Positions 13,905 through 56,577 of a stretch of DNA of 64,000 nt are shown piece by piece. Numbering within the stretch: the first letter of the stretch is position 1; each line of letters opens with the position of its first letter. The DNA lies in contig NZ_JAAMPU010000099.1 in the NCBI RefSeq assembly GCF_012911565.1, positions 1 through 64,000 on the forward strand. Direction: 5' to 3'. A program made the position numbers and the translations under genes. Under the pieces are notes generated by a model. That model had not been told where the DNA came from and ran no database searches. It was given only the letters and a program-made list of their open reading frames with translations. This DNA comes from Flavobacterium silvaticum. GTDB lineage: Bacteria > Bacteroidota > Bacteroidia > Flavobacteriales > Flavobacteriaceae.

Positions 13905-14843
13905 TTAAAACTTGTAAACGACTTCCAATTTGTGACCTGACAACGCTTTTTGTGCTTTCTCGAAATCTTCCGTGAAGCCTAAAATGTATCCGCCGCCGCC
14001 GGATCCGCAGAGCTTAAGATAGTAATCATTAGTATCGAGGCCGTGTTGCCAGATGCCATGGAATTGCTCCGGAATCATCGGTTGGAAATTATTCAGCACC
14101 ACTTTGGACAGTTTTTTAGTGTTCGCGAACAATGATTTGATGTCACCTCCGAGGAAATTCTCGACGCACGCATCGGTGTATTTCACGAACTGATTCTTGA
14201 GCATCGCACGAAAACCTTTGTCCTTTAGATTTTCCATGAAAATATTGACCATTGGAGCTGTCTCGCCAACGATTCCCGAGTCGAGCAAAAACACCGCACC
14301 TTTACCTGTAGCGGCCTGTGCAGGAATTCCGGTAGCTTCTATATTGTCTTTGGAATTGATGAGGATTGGAATGCTGAGGTAGGAATTGAGCGGATCGAGT
14401 CCGGAACTTTTTCCGTGGAAAAACGATTCCATGTGCCCGAAAATAGTCTTGAGCTGAACCAATTTCTCACGTGTCAGGTTCTCCAAAACGGTAATTTTAT
14501 TCTTGGCGTATTTGTCGTAGATGGCTGCAACCAAGGCACCGCTGCTTCCGACTCCGTAACCTTGCGGGATGCTCGAGTCGAAATACATGCCTTCGGCTAT
14601 ATCGTGATGCATTTTTTCAAGGTCGAACTGAACCAGATCCGGATGATCCTGTTGCATCGTTTCCAGATAATACACATAGCGGCTCAGGCTGGCGTTGGAT
14701 TTAACCGCTTCCTCGTCAGGATTATCCGAAACCTTAAGTGCGCCTTTGTAAAAATTATAAGGGATGGAAAGTCCTTTGGAATCTTTGATGATACCGTATT
14801 CCCCGAAGAGGAGGATTTTGGAATAGAAAAGAGGTCCTTTCAT
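13905..14843 (-). CDS. Mevalonate kinase (GHMP kinase family)
   Basis: A 312-residue GHMP kinase: N-terminal SKILLFGEYGII (residues 8-19), the ATP-binding loop IPQGYGVGSSGALVAA (about 92-107), FHGKSSGLDPLNSYLS with the catalytic Asp region, and C-terminal LCGSGGGGYILGF. The pattern matches mevalonate kinase, which phosphorylates mevalonate at C5. The neighbours are diphosphomevalonate decarboxylase and a prenyltransferase, which supports the assignment. A heptamer repeat array (14851-14878) lies 7 bp upstream of the ATG, where the promoter or leader should be. Confidence 0.9.
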   Translation of the reverse strand: MKGPLFYSKILLFGEYGIIKDSKGLSIPYNFYKGALKVSDNPDEEAVKSNASLSRYVYYLETMQQDHPDLVQFDLEKMHHDIAEGMYFDSSIPQGYGVGSSGALVAAIYDKYAKNKITVLENLTREKLVQLKTIFGHMESFFHGKSSGLDPLNSYLSIPILINSKDNIEATGIPAQAATGKGAVFLLDSGIVGETAPMVNIFMENLKDKGFRAMLKNQFVKYTDACVENFLGGDIKSLFANTKKLSKVVLNNFQPMIPEQFHGIWQHGLDTNDYYLKLCGSGGGGYILGFTEDFEKAQKALSGHKLEVVYKF

Positions 14844-14850
14844 ATTGTGG

Positions 14851-14878
14851 GTTAACAGTTAACGGTTAACAGATAACG
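14851..14878 (+). repeat. Heptamer array A: GTTAACA GTTAACG GTTAACA GATAACG
   Basis: Four 7-bp units in the order A, G, A, then GATAACG, sitting directly 5' of mevalonate kinase. It supplies the last codons and the stop of the four-helix-bundle gene. It is inverted relative to array B, with the GATAAC unit innermost in both. Confidence 0.85.
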
Positions 14879-15232
14879 GGTTGCTTTTGAGAGTGGAATT
14901 TACAATCCGAATTAGAATCTTCAAAAGCAGTTTAATATTATTTTGTTGCCGAATATAGGTTTCTGGATCAATAAATTTAGATTCGGAAAGTAAATCCAGC
15001 CAGTATTCAGTTTCATTGGCTTCTTTTAAAGCAATTCTGATTTTATGAACAAAATCGGCTCGGCTTTCGGCATACTGCGCTTCACGAATATTCGCGCCAA
15101 TCGATGTTCCTGATTTAAGTAATTGTCTTGATAATACAAATTCTTTTTGTTCAATAGATATTTATAAATCTCAATAATTTCAAGAGCGAACAGGAAAGAC
15201 TTTTCCCGTATTAAACTTGGAGGTTTATTCAT
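14859..15232 (-). pseudogene. Four-helix-bundle protein (23S rRNA intervening-sequence type), frameshifted
   Basis: Begins ATG at 15232 (MNKPPSLIREKSFLFALEII) and then needs one change of frame. After YKYLLNKK the homologous sequence continues in the -1 frame as EFVLSRQLLKSGTSIGANIRE, then EAQYAESRADFVHKIRIALK and on to LSVNR-stop at 14859. Joined, it is about 124 residues, a normal length for this family of pentameric or RNA-associated four-helix-bundle proteins. The shift lies at an A-run (AAC AAA AAG on the coding strand; T5 at 15144-15148). A lost A, a sequencing error, or -1 slippage on C AAA AAG would each explain it. Without a shift the product stops after about 68 residues. The gene is bracketed by inverted heptamer arrays and interrupts an otherwise mevalonate-only gene run. 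Confidence 0.8.
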
Positions 15233-15281
15233 GATGGATGGCGTTGATGATGCAAAAGTAGTCAAATACATTCAACAGGCC

Positions 15282-15312
15282 TAACTGTTATCCGTTAACT
15301 GTTAACCGTTAA
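15282..15312 (-). repeat. Heptamer array B, inverted relative to A
   Basis: Read on the minus strand: GTTAACG GTTAACA GTTAACG GATAACA GTTAG. It has the same unit plan as array A but with the A/G alternation swapped. It supplies the final LTVNS codons and the stop (15295-15297) of diphosphomevalonate decarboxylase. Confidence 0.85.
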
Positions 15313-16386
15313 CAATTCAGAACCATTTCCAATTTTATCTTCAATATATTTTCCACCTTCACAAAACAGGGATAATACTCCATCTATAAATGTCTTGATT
15401 ACTCCTTTGTATTCATCTGGATATAACACATGCACATTCGCTCCCGCATCAAGCGTAAAACAAATCGGCACATTAGTATCACTGCGGAATTTCCGGATTT
15501 TTTCAATGATAGCCAAGGTATTCGGTTTCATCAATATGTAATACGGATTCGAGGTCAGCATCACGGCATGTAATGATAAAGCTTCCGATTCGACAAGAGC
15601 GACAAAAGACTTCAGGTCGCCGTCGATCAAAATCTGTTTTAAACGGGTAAGGTTCGTCCGTGCCTGTGCAAAACGCGCTTCGGAAAACGGGTTGCCGTTC
15701 ATTAAATCATGGCCGACGGTACTCGATACGGATTTCTGTCCTTCTTCCACAATCAGGATCGTATCACGATAGTTTTGAAATACCTCGTGTGCCTCGAATG
15801 GAAATTCAACCCCGAACAAATCCGAACTTTGCGGAATGTCTTCATGTTCGCCCCAAACCACCAGATTTCCTTTGATGCTGCGGCAGGCGCTTCCGGAACC
15901 GAGACGTGCCAAAAAAGATGCCTTCTGATAAAAGAAATCGTCGGTCATTTCTGGATTTAAAAGTCTTTCCACACTCATCAAAGTCATGGAAAGTGCCGCC
16001 ATTCCGGATGCAGATGAAGCAATGCCGGAAGAATGCGGAAACGTATTCCTCGTGTCGATCGTAAAATGGAAATCGGTCAAAAAAGGCAGGTAACTTTCAA
16101 TGCGCTCAAAAAATTTGAGGATTTTCGGTTTGAACGATTCCTTGGGTTGGCCTTCGAACAGTAAATCGAATGAAAAACCGCCGTGTCGTTTGCGCTCAAA
16201 AGACAAGGTCGTAATGGTCTTGCATTTGTTCAGCGTAAAACTGATGGACGGATTTGCAGGTATTTGCGGTTCGCGTTTTCCCCAGTATTTGACAAGGGCG
16301 ATGTTGCTCGGTGCACTCCAGGTAAAGTTGCCGGAATCAACGGAATTCGTATATGGTGTTGGAATGAATTGGTTCGGGTTGTTCAT
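15295..16386 (-). CDS. mvaD: Diphosphomevalonate decarboxylase
   Basis: A 363-residue GHMP enzyme with the signature SNIALVKYWGK (27-37), NPSIS (45-49), the phosphate loop FPHSSGIASSASGMAAL (about 116-132) and the SGSACRS segment (about 164-170). It uses ATP to decarboxylate mevalonate 5-diphosphate to isopentenyl diphosphate. The last codons (LTVNS) and stop come from heptamer array B, so the C-terminus has probably been remodelled. The start at 16386 lies only 4 bases below an exact -7 box (TACCTTTG, 16391-16398), implying a leaderless or nearly leaderless mRNA. Confidence 0.93.
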   Translation of the reverse strand: MNNPNQFIPTPYTNSVDSGNFTWSAPSNIALVKYWGKREPQIPANPSISFTLNKCKTITTLSFERKRHGGFSFDLLFEGQPKESFKPKILKFFERIESYLPFLTDFHFTIDTRNTFPHSSGIASSASGMAALSMTLMSVERLLNPEMTDDFFYQKASFLARLGSGSACRSIKGNLVVWGEHEDIPQSSDLFGVEFPFEAHEVFQNYRDTILIVEEGQKSVSSTVGHDLMNGNPFSEARFAQARTNLTRLKQILIDGDLKSFVALVESEALSLHAVMLTSNPYYILMKPNTLAIIEKIRKFRSDTNVPICFTLDAGANVHVLYPDEYKGVIKTFIDGVLSLFCEGGKYIEDKIGNGSELLTVNS

Positions 16387-16390
16387 GGGG

Positions 16391-16398
16391 CAAAGGTA
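16391..16398 (-). promoter_or_regulatory. -7 promoter element TACCTTTG, leaderless start
   Basis: Exact TAnnTTTG box on the minus strand, followed by CCCC and the ATG at 16386. Its upstream half overlaps heptamer array C, so the array forms the promoter spacer. No TTG was seen at the -33 position. Confidence 0.5.
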
Positions 16399-16425
16399 AC
16401 GGTTAACGGTTAATGGTTGACAGTT
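16395..16425 (+). repeat. Heptamer array C (degenerate)
   Basis: Units GGTAACG, GTTAACG, GTTAATG, GTTGACA, GTTGGG. Same heptamer as arrays A and B but more diverged. Located between mvaD and tspO. Confidence 0.7.
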
Positions 16426-16495
16426 GGGCGATGGAAAGTATCGGGCGATCTAAGCCTTTGTTTGCCATAAACCCTGTAATCCAATACTGTCTTCC

Positions 16496-16503
16496 TATCT
16501 TCG
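16496..16503 (+). promoter_or_regulatory. -7-like element TATCTTCG for tspO
   Basis: One mismatch to TAnnTTTG, 24 bases upstream of the tspO ATG at 16528. It directly precedes the heptamer-like tract at 16508-16524. Confidence 0.4.
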
Positions 16504-16507
16504 CAAA

Positions 16508-16524
16508 ACAGTTATCCGTTAGCC
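16508..16524 (-). repeat. Heptamer-like tract D
   Basis: Plus strand CAGTTATCCGTTAGCCC; on the minus strand this reads GGGCTAACGGATAACTG, related to the inner end of array B. It is inverted relative to array C. C and D together could mark a second, now empty, element. Confidence 0.45.
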
Positions 16525-16527
16525 CAA

Positions 16528-17004
16528 ATGAACAAATACATAAAAATCCTGATAATGCTCGCCACCTGCCTGGGTGTTGGTTATATTTCCAGTGTCGCTA
16601 CCCAAACCAGCGTCCATACGTGGTTTCCGACTTTAATAAAGCCATCGTTCAATCCACCGAATTACCTGTTTATGCCGGTATGGACAACACTTTATGTTTT
16701 TATGGGAGTTGCGGCCGGTTTGGTCTGGGCACGAATCGATTTCCAACGCGAAGATGTCAAAAAAGCACTGTTGTATTTCTTTATCCAGCTCGCCTTGAAT
16801 GCGGGTTGGTCGTTGCTTTTCTTCGGTCTCAAAAATCCGTTTCTGGCACTCGTGGAAATCGTCCTGTTGTGGCTCATGATCTATGAAACCTTCTACAAAT
16901 TTGTCCGGATCAGTAAATATGCGGGTTGGTTGTTTGTACCTTACATTTTATGGGTCAGTTTTGCCTTGATACTCAATGCGTCACTTTGGTATCTGAATAC
17001 ATAA
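16528..17004 (+). CDS. tspO: TspO/MBR family protein
   Basis: A 158-residue membrane protein with five predicted transmembrane helices, the standard TspO plan. The conserved aromatic-rich stretches are present: WFPTLIKPSFNPPNYLFMPVWTTLYVFMGVAAGLVW, then ALNAGWSLLFFGLKNP and the final WVSFALILNASLWYLN. TspO proteins bind porphyrins and are linked to tetrapyrrole homeostasis and oxidative stress. The gene is divergent from mvaD, with heptamer arrays C and D between them. Confidence 0.93.
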   Translation: MNKYIKILIMLATCLGVGYISSVATQTSVHTWFPTLIKPSFNPPNYLFMPVWTTLYVFMGVAAGLVWARIDFQREDVKKALLYFFIQLALNAGWSLLFFGLKNPFLALVEIVLLWLMIYETFYKFVRISKYAGWLFVPYILWVSFALILNASLWYLNT

Positions 17005-25484: not shown

Positions 25485-27410
25485 CTATTTCAATTCTAGG
25501 ATCAAAGCTGTTTTTGGAGCGATGGTTATGTTTTGGTTCAGTTCGATGCTTTTTCCAGTGATGATATTGGTTCCGGTTTTGGACGATTTGATGCTTTCGG
25601 CGAACCGCTCTGTCTTGGTGGTTTGTTCCGATGCACTGTTGTTGATGATGACCATTATAGTATCGAAATCGTCGTATCTGAAATACACATACACATTGTT
25701 TTCCGGAATGTAATGTTTGGTCTTTCCGGAATGGATTACTGATTTTGCTTTCCTCCAGTTGAATAATTTCGACGTGTAATCGAAGAATTCCTTTTGTGTG
25801 GCATCGCGTCCGGAATCTGAAAAAGCATTTTGGGAGTCGCCAATCCATCCGCCCGGAAAATCCCGTCGGATATCGCCGTCGCCTTTTTTGTCCTTATCGC
25901 CCGCCATGCCAATTTCACTTCCGTAATACAGTTGTGGAATGCCTCGGACTGTTGCAATTAGTGCCATCGCCATTTTATAATTGGCAAGATTATTTTTGTA
26001 AATGTGGTTGAACCGTTGGGTGTCGTGGTTTTCGGCAAATACCAAAATCGAATTGATGTCGGGATATAAAAAGTCATTCGTGAAATTCTCGTAAATCCGG
26101 ATCATGCCTTTGTCCCAGCTCGGATTGTCTTCTGAAAAAGCCTGGGAAATGGCATCGTGCAGCGTAAAGTCCATCAAGGTCGGCAAATGGGAATTGTAAT
26201 TTTCTATCGCCCCGATTTTACTGTCGCGCTGCCAGTACGCCATTTGCGCCTGGTCGTGCATCCAGACTTCGCCGGCGATGTTGAAGTACGGATACTCGTC
26301 GAGTATCGCCTTAGTCCATTTCGATATGCCTTCTTTGTCGTTGTAGGAATAAGTGTCGACGCGAAATCCATCTAAATCTGCATATTCGATCCACCAGATG
26401 GCGTTTTGTATGAGATAATTCAGAACTAATGGATTCGATTGATTCAAATCAGGCATTGACTTTACGAACCAACCGTCGACGCAATATTTCGTGTCGATGT
26501 CAGATGCATTCGTATCGAATTGGGTCGTCATGCGATAGTTGCTTTGGGCATATCCCGGAAACTGATGGATCCAGTCGTATGAAGGCAAATCCTTGATCAT
26601 CCAATGCTCGGCGCCCCAATGGTTCGTGACGTAATCGAGCACCAGTTTCATTTTTCGCTTATGTAGTTCCGATGAAAGTTTGAGATAATCCTCATTCGTC
26701 CCATAGCGGGGATCGATCTTATATAAATCAGATTGTGCATAGCCGTGATAGGAACCGCGCGGGTCATTGTCTTCGCAAAGCGGCGTATTCCAGACTGTAG
26801 TTATGCCCAGTGATTCCAAGTAATCGAGATGGTTGATGATTCCCTGGATGTCGCCTCCGTGACGGCCGTGATCATTGGTTCGGTTTGATTTCTCAGATGT
26901 ATCAGATGTGTTGTCGTTTGCCGGATTTCCGTTTGAGAAACGGTCGGGCATGATAAGGTAAAGTGCATCGGATGAATCATATCCTTTTCGCAACGCGGAA
27001 TCTTTGCGGCGGGCCTTGAGTTCGTATTTTTGGGTGAATCCTGTCTTCTTACCGTCGATGAAAGAAAATATCAGCTGTGATGGCGGGACATTTTTGGTGT
27101 CGATAGTGACGAAAATATAATTTGGATTTTCTGTCTTTGCTATTGATGTGATTGGGATGTTGTTCGAAACCGTGACGTTGTATTTGGAAATGTTTGGCCC
27201 GTAGAACATGATTTGGAGTTCGGGGTTATGCATTTGGGAGAACCAGAATGGGGGTTCGGTTTTGAGGGGTTGGGCGGAGGATGAGTTGAGAAAGGTGAGA
27301 CAAATGAATAGTGTTAAAAACCTTCCAGGATTAATAATCGCGGCAGGTTTTATAATTCTGGAAGGTTTATTAAACCTGGAAGGTCTATGGTAATGAAAAA
27401 AACGTTTCAT
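25485..27410 (-). CDS. GH13 alpha-glucan hydrolase, neopullulanase/SusA-like, with repeat-derived signal-peptide region
   Basis: A 641-residue enzyme with a neopullulanase-type N-terminal beta domain (PFWFSQMHNPELQIMFYGPN) and a GH13 barrel: LDYVTNHWG, DGFRVDTYSY (nucleophile Asp352), IAGEVWM (Glu381) and AENHDTQR (Asp463). It should cleave maltodextrins or pullulan in the periplasm. The N-terminus is odd: between the ATG and the hydrophobic core FLTLFICLTFL lies a 6-residue periodic segment (PSRFNK, PSRIIK, PAAIIN, PGRFLT) encoded by a REP-like 18-bp repeat. The signal peptide n-region is therefore much longer than usual. No later Met is available as a start. Confidence 0.9.
   Translation of the reverse strand: MKRFFHYHRPSRFNKPSRIIKPAAIINPGRFLTLFICLTFLNSSSAQPLKTEPPFWFSQMHNPELQIMFYGPNISKYNVTVSNNIPITSIAKTENPNYIFVTIDTKNVPPSQLIFSFIDGKKTGFTQKYELKARRKDSALRKGYDSSDALYLIMPDRFSNGNPANDNTSDTSEKSNRTNDHGRHGGDIQGIINHLDYLESLGITTVWNTPLCEDNDPRGSYHGYAQSDLYKIDPRYGTNEDYLKLSSELHKRKMKLVLDYVTNHWGAEHWMIKDLPSYDWIHQFPGYAQSNYRMTTQFDTNASDIDTKYCVDGWFVKSMPDLNQSNPLVLNYLIQNAIWWIEYADLDGFRVDTYSYNDKEGISKWTKAILDEYPYFNIAGEVWMHDQAQMAYWQRDSKIGAIENYNSHLPTLMDFTLHDAISQAFSEDNPSWDKGMIRIYENFTNDFLYPDINSILVFAENHDTQRFNHIYKNNLANYKMAMALIATVRGIPQLYYGSEIGMAGDKDKKGDGDIRRDFPGGWIGDSQNAFSDSGRDATQKEFFDYTSKLFNWRKAKSVIHSGKTKHYIPENNVYVYFRYDDFDTIMVIINNSASEQTTKTERFAESIKSSKTGTNIITGKSIELNQNITIAPKTALILELK
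27312..27386 (-). repeat. REP-like palindrome with 18-bp periodicity inside a coding region
   Basis: On the minus strand four 18-base units begin CCT (27383, 27365, 27347, 27329). The outer arms are inverted: ACCTTCCAGGATTAATAA (27320-27337) against the complement of 27367-27384 matches at 17 of 18 positions. The unit length keeps the reading frame of the GH13 gene. Confidence 0.85.
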
Positions 27411-45543: not shown

Positions 45544-45616
45544 TGGTATCTCCAGGAATCGAACCAGGGACACATGGATTTTCAGTCCATTGCTCTACCA
45601 ACTGAGCTAAGATACC
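45544..45616 (-). tRNA. tRNA-Phe (GAA)
   Basis: A 73-base tRNA without encoded CCA. On the minus strand it runs from GGTATCTTAGCTCAGTTGG to the matching GATACC plus discriminator A. The anticodon stem ATGGA/TCCAT encloses loop CTGAAAA, anticodon GAA. The T-loop is GGTTCGATTCC. Confidence 0.96.
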
Positions 45617-56265: not shown

Positions 56266-56577
56266 AACGATTTCATTTGTTGGAAAGGTGGGTTGCAACA
56301 TCCGTTTTCAATTGAACCGTTTTTGTGTGAAATGGCCTTTGAAAAATCGTTTCACACGTTTATTGTGTTAAACCTATTTTGAAAATCTGTTTCACACACT
56401 TTTTGTGTTAATTCGCGATTATCGATCGTTTTAACACAAAAGCCAATCGGATACTATAATAAAAAAGTAAATTTTTAGCGGGGACAAACACTGTCTCATC
56501 GCTTTTTTTTCGTGCCCAAAAGTGGCATTGTTTCCGATTTTTTCACTAAACTTGACGGTTTTTAGACAAAACTTTAA
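56266..56577. repeat. Repeat-rich spacer: 40-bp tandem pair and inverted repeats
   Basis: A 40-bp direct repeat: TTTCACAC recurs at 56350 and 56390, and TTGTGTTA at 56363 and 56403. TTTTGTGTTAA (56401-56411) and TTAACACAAAA (56431-56441) form a perfect 11-bp inverted repeat with a 19-base loop. The piece TTTTTGTGTGAAATGG near 56320-56335 is the inverted form of the TTTCACAC arm. No gene is visible. The promoter of the DPP-IV gene must lie at its 3' end. Confidence 0.65.

Follow-up and report, generated by a model that had tools for sequence, protein, structure and literature searches.

Genes of the S23 family (23S_rRNA_IVP, PF05635), to which no function is assigned, are carried by the intervening sequences (IVSs) of 23S rRNA, which are thought to be remnants of transposition or of mobile elements, with the open reading frame (ORF) serving mobility (PMC4990558). 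In Coxiella, the IVS has a 28-bp terminal stem and is cleaved by RNase III in vitro (PMC4990558), and the four-helix-bundle S23 protein of Xanthomonas forms a homopentamer (Lin 2006, quoted in PMC4990558). Other places in which S23 genes have turned up are cas loci (PMC3936711) and the rRNA insertions of CPR bacteria (PMC11270868), and PF05635 resembles Avd, the accessory protein family of diversity-generating retroelements (PMC10053308). Two described kinds of dispersed repeats are likewise close to the locus presented here. REPINs, which are inverted doublets outside genes, form clusters that adjoin RAYT genes (PMC3116915), while TAACTGA heptamers, described as direct repeats of one unit, are known from Beggiatoaceae, cyanobacteria, and a few Bacteroidetes (PMC4679880). 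The text of the latter paper mentions neither S23 nor IVS and contains neither "four helix" nor "intervening", and our search of open-licence papers returned no account of S23 genes flanked by tandem inverted arrays or accompanied by dispersed doublets.

The Element between mvaD and the Mevalonate Kinase Gene

The window is the whole 64,000-nucleotide stretch of DNA analyzed, from Flavobacterium silvaticum, whose genome (3.77 Mb) is designated G000. Its relevant features are the following, gene calls made by our scripts being simple ORFs and not annotation:

14851-14878, + strand: array A, four tandem heptamers, GTTAACA GTTAACG GTTAACA GATAACG
15281-15313, - strand: array B, GTTAACG GTTAACA GTTAACG GATAACA (15313-15286) and a partial GTTAG (15285-15281)
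14859-15232, - strand: S23 / 23S_rRNA_IVP (PF05635) gene, frameshifted
13905-14843, - strand: mevalonate kinase (GHMP kinase), the element's downstream neighbor
15295-16386, - strand: mvaD, diphosphomevalonate decarboxylase-like, the element's upstream neighbor
16395-16422, + strand: third GTTAACR array, degenerate (four units, three mismatches), in the tspO-mvaD gap, without S23
16508-16523, - strand: poor inverted partner of the third array, found by eye, preceding the tspO start
16528-17004, + strand: tspO

Arrays A and B are mutually inverted with the GATAAC unit innermost in both, and the gene that they enclose is frameshifted, exactly as an earlier, sequence-only reading of this DNA had it. 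Array A lies 8 bp from the start of the mevalonate kinase gene (mvk) and contains the stop codon of S23, and array B contains the stop codon of mvaD. With up to two mismatches and overlaps counted, the window holds 13 matches to GTTAACRGTTAACR, when 100 dinucleotide shuffles averaged 1.39 matches and never gave more than 5. The same reading had proposed a 23S-IVS-type protein in a mevalonate-pathway setting, and both proposals held: the longer open part of the gene (14862-15155, - strand) matches PF05635 with an E-value of 9.8e-22, and profile matches identify the neighbors as an MVD-like decarboxylase and a GHMP kinase, the latter being, by context, mevalonate kinase. The window copy is split over two frames, with the frameshift within its first third, and open copies stand at the mvaD-mvk junction of relatives such as G264 (PF05635 E-value 2.1e-28), G234, and G088. 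The element lies outside rRNA genes, the sole Rfam match in the window being a tRNA (45544-45616).

In the neighboring tspO-mvaD gap (16387-16527), the third array touches TACCTTTG, which we take to be the promoter-like box (TAnnTTTG) of mvaD; the same gap in G264 (L211) shows, by eye, a GAAAGTC-type pair and an array of CACTTCAG. The window also holds a 147-bp tandem repeat of 2.3 copies at its edge (1-340), as well as 18-bp and 40-bp tandem repeats (27327-27384 and 56318-56408) whose consensus units are unlike the heptamers.

Dispersed Array Doublets in the Same Genome

Across G000, GTTAACRGTTAACR has 56 exact matches (28 + 28) against 0 for the reversed pattern, which is the control of our pattern searches; overlapping matches inside one array are all counted, so that such matches are not independent, and Fisher values for pattern counts, which assume independence, overstate significance. 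Twenty-six GTTAACR loci were read, namely the window and 25 others. Of the pairs of adjacent arrays at most 500 bp apart, 13 face inward, two point the same way, and none faces outward. All 41 arrays lie outside ORFs, and on the outer side 33 of the 41 stand within 30 bp of a CDS end, which on the inner side is true of a single array, owing to the S23 stop in the window. The nearest outer CDS end is a stop for 23 arrays and a start for 18. From this inward polarity and the position at CDS ends it follows that the doublets frame intergenic gaps. The interiors of the 13 inward pairs measure 20-407 bp and have no common core, their best mutual local score being 25 and the median 16.5 (no null was run for these scores); the idea that the doublets are copies with a common core was rejected on this ground.

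A second family, GAAAGWCSG, has 82 matches in G000 with up to one mismatch (31 + 51) against a control of 0. Among its 24 loci read, three of which have no callable array, four pairs of arrays face inward, none outward, and six the same way. S23 elements account for one of the 13 inward GTTAACR pairs and for one of the four inward GAAAGWCSG pairs, and the arms of the S23 genes themselves are included in the 56 and 82 matches.

G000 has three S23 genes (E-values up to 0.01), which are armed with GTTAACR (the window copy), GAAAGWCSG (L031, open), and AGTGARA (L032, open). As the first two units are abundant in G000, two of the three S23 units are dispersed genome-wide. AGTGARA has seven matches against two in the control, all within about 1.2 kb of L032; one AGTGARA array (L232, G000:C106:69300-72900) lies about 1.2 kb from that S23 gene, possibly as a first step of dispersal. 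The sequence-only reading had named, as what would tell against it, heptamer arrays that are widespread and unlinked to genes of this kind. The first half of this describes G000, because GTTAACR arrays are found throughout a genome with only three S23 genes, and arrays specific to the S23 gene are thereby ruled out; the second half does not, S23 genes sharing the dispersed units in some genomes.

Inverted Arms around S23 Genes of Other Sites and Lineages

S23 matches were found in 389 of 398 genomes of the genus sample. To compare the arms, the 200-bp upstream flank of each gene was aligned with its 200-bp downstream flank in reverse complement. For 77 genus loci at 14 genomic sites, taken from the best-scoring matches listed and 40 of them hand-picked, the median own-arm score was 34, against scores of about 18 for the direct orientation, for shuffles, and for the flanks of other loci. 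Relative to cross pairs from other sites, 66 of the 77 loci exceed the 95% level and 55 the 99% level (13 of 77 above the 95% level in direct orientation), and a majority of loci pass at 12 of the 14 sites. These clearer figures depend on omitting same-site cross pairs: with all cross pairs, including those between loci of the same site and unit, 30 of 77 loci exceed the 95% level and 7 the 99% level. Tandem periodicity alone surpasses the 99% level of shuffles in 32 of 77 upstream and 33 of 77 downstream flanks.

A broad scan gave a similar picture. Its set is the best 80 of at least 585 confirmed loci, 79 of them usable, and is mostly from Bacteroidota, with other labels including Ignavibacteriae, SAR324, Nitrospirae, Desulfobacteraceae, and Omnitrophota (labels that may be wrong for metagenome-assembled contigs); at least three of its loci (L242-L244), whose contigs match those of genus loci L144, L149, and L153 in length, probably duplicate these loci. 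Against the cross-locus levels, 57 of the 79 S23 loci exceed 95% and 33 exceed 99% (5 of 79 above 99% in direct orientation), versus 5 and 3 of 89 control ORFs in the same loci and none of 67 ORFs of the window at either level. As a background, 374 intergenic gaps from four genomes were scored against cross pairs among themselves; 26 pass the 99% level, and 13 do so in direct orientation. The sequence-only reading had suggested looking in relatives for such genes next to tandem heptamers, and S23 genes elsewhere do stand between inverted arrays.

The arms have a median length of 32 bp and a period of 7 at 40 of 55 sites, 8 at 12, and 9 at 3, with units that differ by site and lineage. The two arms of a locus vary together, as is plain at the mvk site, where the unit is GTTAACR in the window, ATTAATA/ATGAATA in G264, and ATTGATA in G088, G234, and G289. 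Over 67 loci from sites with at least three loci, the own-arm scores sum to 2500, versus 2029 +/- 57 when partners are permuted within the site (maximum 2241 in 2000 permutations). Two further ideas about the arrays were set aside. Five units per arm, matching a pentamer, is not claimed here, the median being 4.1 with a wide spread, and translation stops in all frames, as a purpose of the arrays, occur in 0.32 of arms against 0.18 expected, a weak effect. Some S23 genes lie inside 8-9-mer arrays longer than usual, such as GGTTTGCTC (L197 in G282, L196 in G291, L202 in G099), and tandem S23 pairs about 0.5 kb apart occur at L195 and L207 (G383) and at G170:C1:75743-76599.

Units Shared in Trans

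Genomes in which the mvk element or its remnant is present also carry its unit elsewhere. Matches to ATTRAYAATTRAYA (ATTRAYA) versus the reversed control number 220/44 in G264, 46/8 in G088, 39/6 in G234, 19/3 in G289, and 45/19 in G331, when they number 52/48 and 16/10 in G384 and G308, in which the mvk site is empty. The totals are thus 369 versus 80 for the five genomes with element or remnant and 68 versus 58 for the two without, a contrast drawn from seven genomes in which G264 alone supplies 220 of the 369 overlapping matches. G331 has kept its ATTRAYA arrays though no PF05635 match remains. Another S23 gene of G264, L137, has AAAGYRC arms. This unit is found seven times (control 1) in 383 kb of the genome, six of the matches falling in stretches that have no S23 ORF, and is absent from 395 kb of G384 and G308. 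Among five GTTAACR-rich genomes, GTTAACR-armed S23 genes were found in two, G000 and G081, the latter having S23 L194 between GTTAACR/GTTATCR runs (by eye); in the other three, G383, G282, and G291, S23 genes have other arrays and none is GTTAACR-armed.

For five array sites of G000, the same 383 kb of G264 contain the orthologous junction. By eye, four of these junctions bear different units in G264 and one bears no array. In one such comparison (L236 vs. L330), the two species share a conserved terminator-like stretch that ends only where the array begins. As a background for G264, tandem repeats of 6-10-mers exceed the 99% level of shuffles in 43 of 186 gaps.

Transcript, Fold, and Protein

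Both neighbors could be called at 87 sites, and at 82 of these they are co-directional with S23, compared with 314 of 601 control ORFs (Fisher 6e-16) and 54 of 104 small ORFs (Fisher 2e-11). This arrangement suggests that S23 is probably expressed from the host operon. In the predicted fold of the element RNA, the arms form a closing stem, with z-scores of -4.8 in the window and -5.5 in G264. However, arm mismatches display no excess of G-U over A-C (200 vs. 252; by site, 23 vs. 28 with 22 equal, p 0.58), in a test in which 127 of the 151 loci offered were kept (score of at least 28) and from which the window, L242-L244, and L255 were omitted as possible duplicates or for a frameshift. There is hence no sign that sense RNA pairing maintains the arms, and their maintenance as an RNA stem was rejected on this account. 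The two solved homologues that sequence comparison identified, 2rld and 2gsc, both contain five chains. One S23 protein of G000 gives a bAvd match below threshold (24.2 bits for a cut-off of 40).

History of the Element at the mvk Site

We collected the mvaD-mvk junctions of the 25 best kinase matches, our own genome included, 24 of which were readable. Six have S23 (open, broken, or remnant) with arrays, 16 have neither (by eye), and two have other small genes. The gene and its arrays are therefore not fixed at this place in all relatives, a possibility that the sequence-only reading had raised against itself. At the junctions L093, L094, and L102-L106, other small genes are present that look toxin-antitoxin-like by eye, with no arrays seen, and insertions of various kinds may generally occur at this junction. 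The end of mvaD at the empty sites read here resembles, again by eye, the unit ATTGATA. An unsystematic comparison by eye of empty and filled mvaD-mvk junctions revealed no target-site duplication at this site.

When the filled state is mapped on a tree of mevalonate kinase genes from 29 species, six changes are required, at least four of them on well-supported branches. The mvk-site S23 proteins nonetheless group together on the S23 tree, with G000 and G264 as sisters. An old insertion with repeated loss is the simplest account of proteins that group despite such patchy presence; accordingly, the mvk-site element is probably old and inherited, repeatedly lost, and replaced in its unit in both arms, although repeated gain is also possible. 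In the genus sample, each S23 lineage mostly keeps to one genomic site. The S23 tree has 93 of 94 rows (site 0 being thinned to 9 of 33 and the broad set to every second locus) and few columns, with 43 of its 88 inner branches unresolved; on it, six sites together need five changes, which is the minimum, and sites 1 and 3 taken alone need two; free movement of the S23 gene was rejected. No movement event was seen among the loci compared. The mobile unit envisaged in the sequence-only reading thus survives as an optional insert, filled at 6 of 24 junctions and absent from others, but not as a freely mobile gene. One locus of G020, L199 (G020:C98:85666-85983), stands at another genomic site and yet falls inside the mvk-site S23 group, with AATTACG-like repeats upstream (by eye); movement or a shared origin is possible there.

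Discussion

The element has partial likenesses to each of the systems described above. As in the 23S rRNA IVS, an S23 ORF is enclosed by complementary ends that are predicted to close a stem around it, and its presence is patchy. Unlike the IVS, however, it occupies an intergenic junction of protein operons outside rRNA genes, its arms are tandem 7-9-mers that turn over, and S23-less doublets of the same unit are dispersed in the genome, with no sign of selection for RNA pairing. The likeness to REPIN/RAYT lies in a gene flanked by a lineage-specific repeat that is also present elsewhere as extragenic inverted doublets, a description that fits the arrays of G000 (0 of 41 in ORFs; inward to outward polarity of 13:0 and 4:0). 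It differs in that the flanked genes scanned encode a PF05635 four-helix bundle and not a Y1 (HUH) transposase, the arms are tandem 7-9-mers and not a short imperfect REP palindrome, the doublet interiors have no common core, and S23, unlike a transposase gene, mostly keeps to its site. The lack of a conserved interior among the 13 doublets likewise sets them apart from TIR transposons and MITEs. With TAACTGA repeats the arrays share tandem heptamers, intergenic location next to CDS ends, and occurrence in Bacteroidetes, but GTTAACR/GATAACR stand in inverted pairs and the unit changes by lineage. Membership of a shared protein superfamily links S23 to the Avd/bAvd proteins of diversity-generating retroelements.

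Starting from the observed architecture and its recurrence, the co-variation of arms, the sharing of units in several genomes, the empty sites, and the differing units at orthologous junctions, we tentatively favor, at slightly short of an even chance, the reading of the locus as an intergenic S23 element whose gene supplies the coding core for a REPIN-like family of array doublets. On this reading, an S23 gene would be closed by two inverted arms of tandem 7-9-bp units at a junction of co-directional genes, and the other family members would be doublets without S23, which face inward at gap edges and in several genomes have the same unit as an S23 gene there. The working would be RAYT/REPIN-like, with a single gene bordered by a repeat that is dispersed in its genome and on which it probably acts. 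The S23 pentamer may bind the tandem units, and the hairpin-forming arms may be copied or homogenized at the DNA level through template switching and slippage, perhaps aided by S23, by which the arrays of one lineage would drift together to a new unit. The element would in this way be an intergenic cousin of the rRNA intervening sequences. In G000 itself, the window copy of S23 is already decaying while the array family persists.

On another account, S23 would be a mere passenger, surviving amid self-propagating, hypermutable arrays that arise by slippage and hairpin template switching at intergenic hot spots; template switching is sufficient by itself to render inverted arms similar. The array loci of G000, which far outnumber its three S23 genes, the 43 of 186 gaps of G264 with tandem repeats, and the GTTAACR-rich genomes without a GTTAACR-armed S23 all agree with this account; we still regard it as rather unlikely, considering that 57 of 79 S23 loci are bracketed by arrays versus 5 of 89 ORFs (95% level), that background gaps reach 26 of 374 (at the 99% level, in another comparison), and that ATTRAYA is clearly enriched in the five genomes with an mvk element but scarcely so in the two whose mvk site is empty. 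An intervening sequence acting only on RNA, in which the stem is cut in the mRNA by RNase III or insulates the S23 cistron and has no role in DNA, is unlikely too. It would fit the co-directionality of S23, the predicted closing stem, and the Coxiella precedent of RNase III cleavage (PMC4990558), but sense RNA pairing should give the G-U excess that the mismatches do not display, and neither the tandem units nor the S23-less doublets of the same unit, three of which sit at convergent gene pairs, are explained by it.

The S23-less doublets could also each be the relic of a lost S23 element, only whole S23 elements ever having inserted, as the broken mvk-site gene of G000 and the remnant in G331, with arms left behind, might suggest. 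This is very improbable: several doublets enclose 20-92 bp or sit at convergent genes, one array adjoins the terminator-like stretch conserved in both G000 and G264, and the 15 called S23-less doublets share two units, so that homogenization would be required anyway. Least probable of all, and hardly to be expected, is a regulatory or translational role for the heptamers, of the sort suggested for the TAACTGA repeats of Beggiatoaceae that precede start codons (PMC4679880). Although the nearest outer CDS end is a start for 18 of 41 arrays, it is a stop for the other 23; polarity follows the gap and not the gene, and the unit differs between related species at one and the same junction.

For the intergenic S23 element with its array doublets, the layout that recurs around most family genes examined suggests an unrecognized kind of small genomic element. 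A wider version, which is conceivable but doubtful, is that S23 is the sequence-specific partner of a widespread class of array doublets, in Bacteroidota and beyond, the pentamer of each lineage recognizing its own 7-9-mer, maintaining and dispersing the arrays, and driving the concerted replacement of units genome-wide. If this were true, S23 and its array doublets would be an analogue of RAYT/REPIN that works without a transposase. Genes of the S23/IVS kind are very common, and they now have a consistent partner in cis, a short inverted array of lineage-dependent sequence, which makes the function of S23 testable by one binding experiment with cognate versus foreign arrays. Finally, dispersed repeats whose units differ at the same positions in relatives pose a problem of concerted evolution within bacterial genomes.
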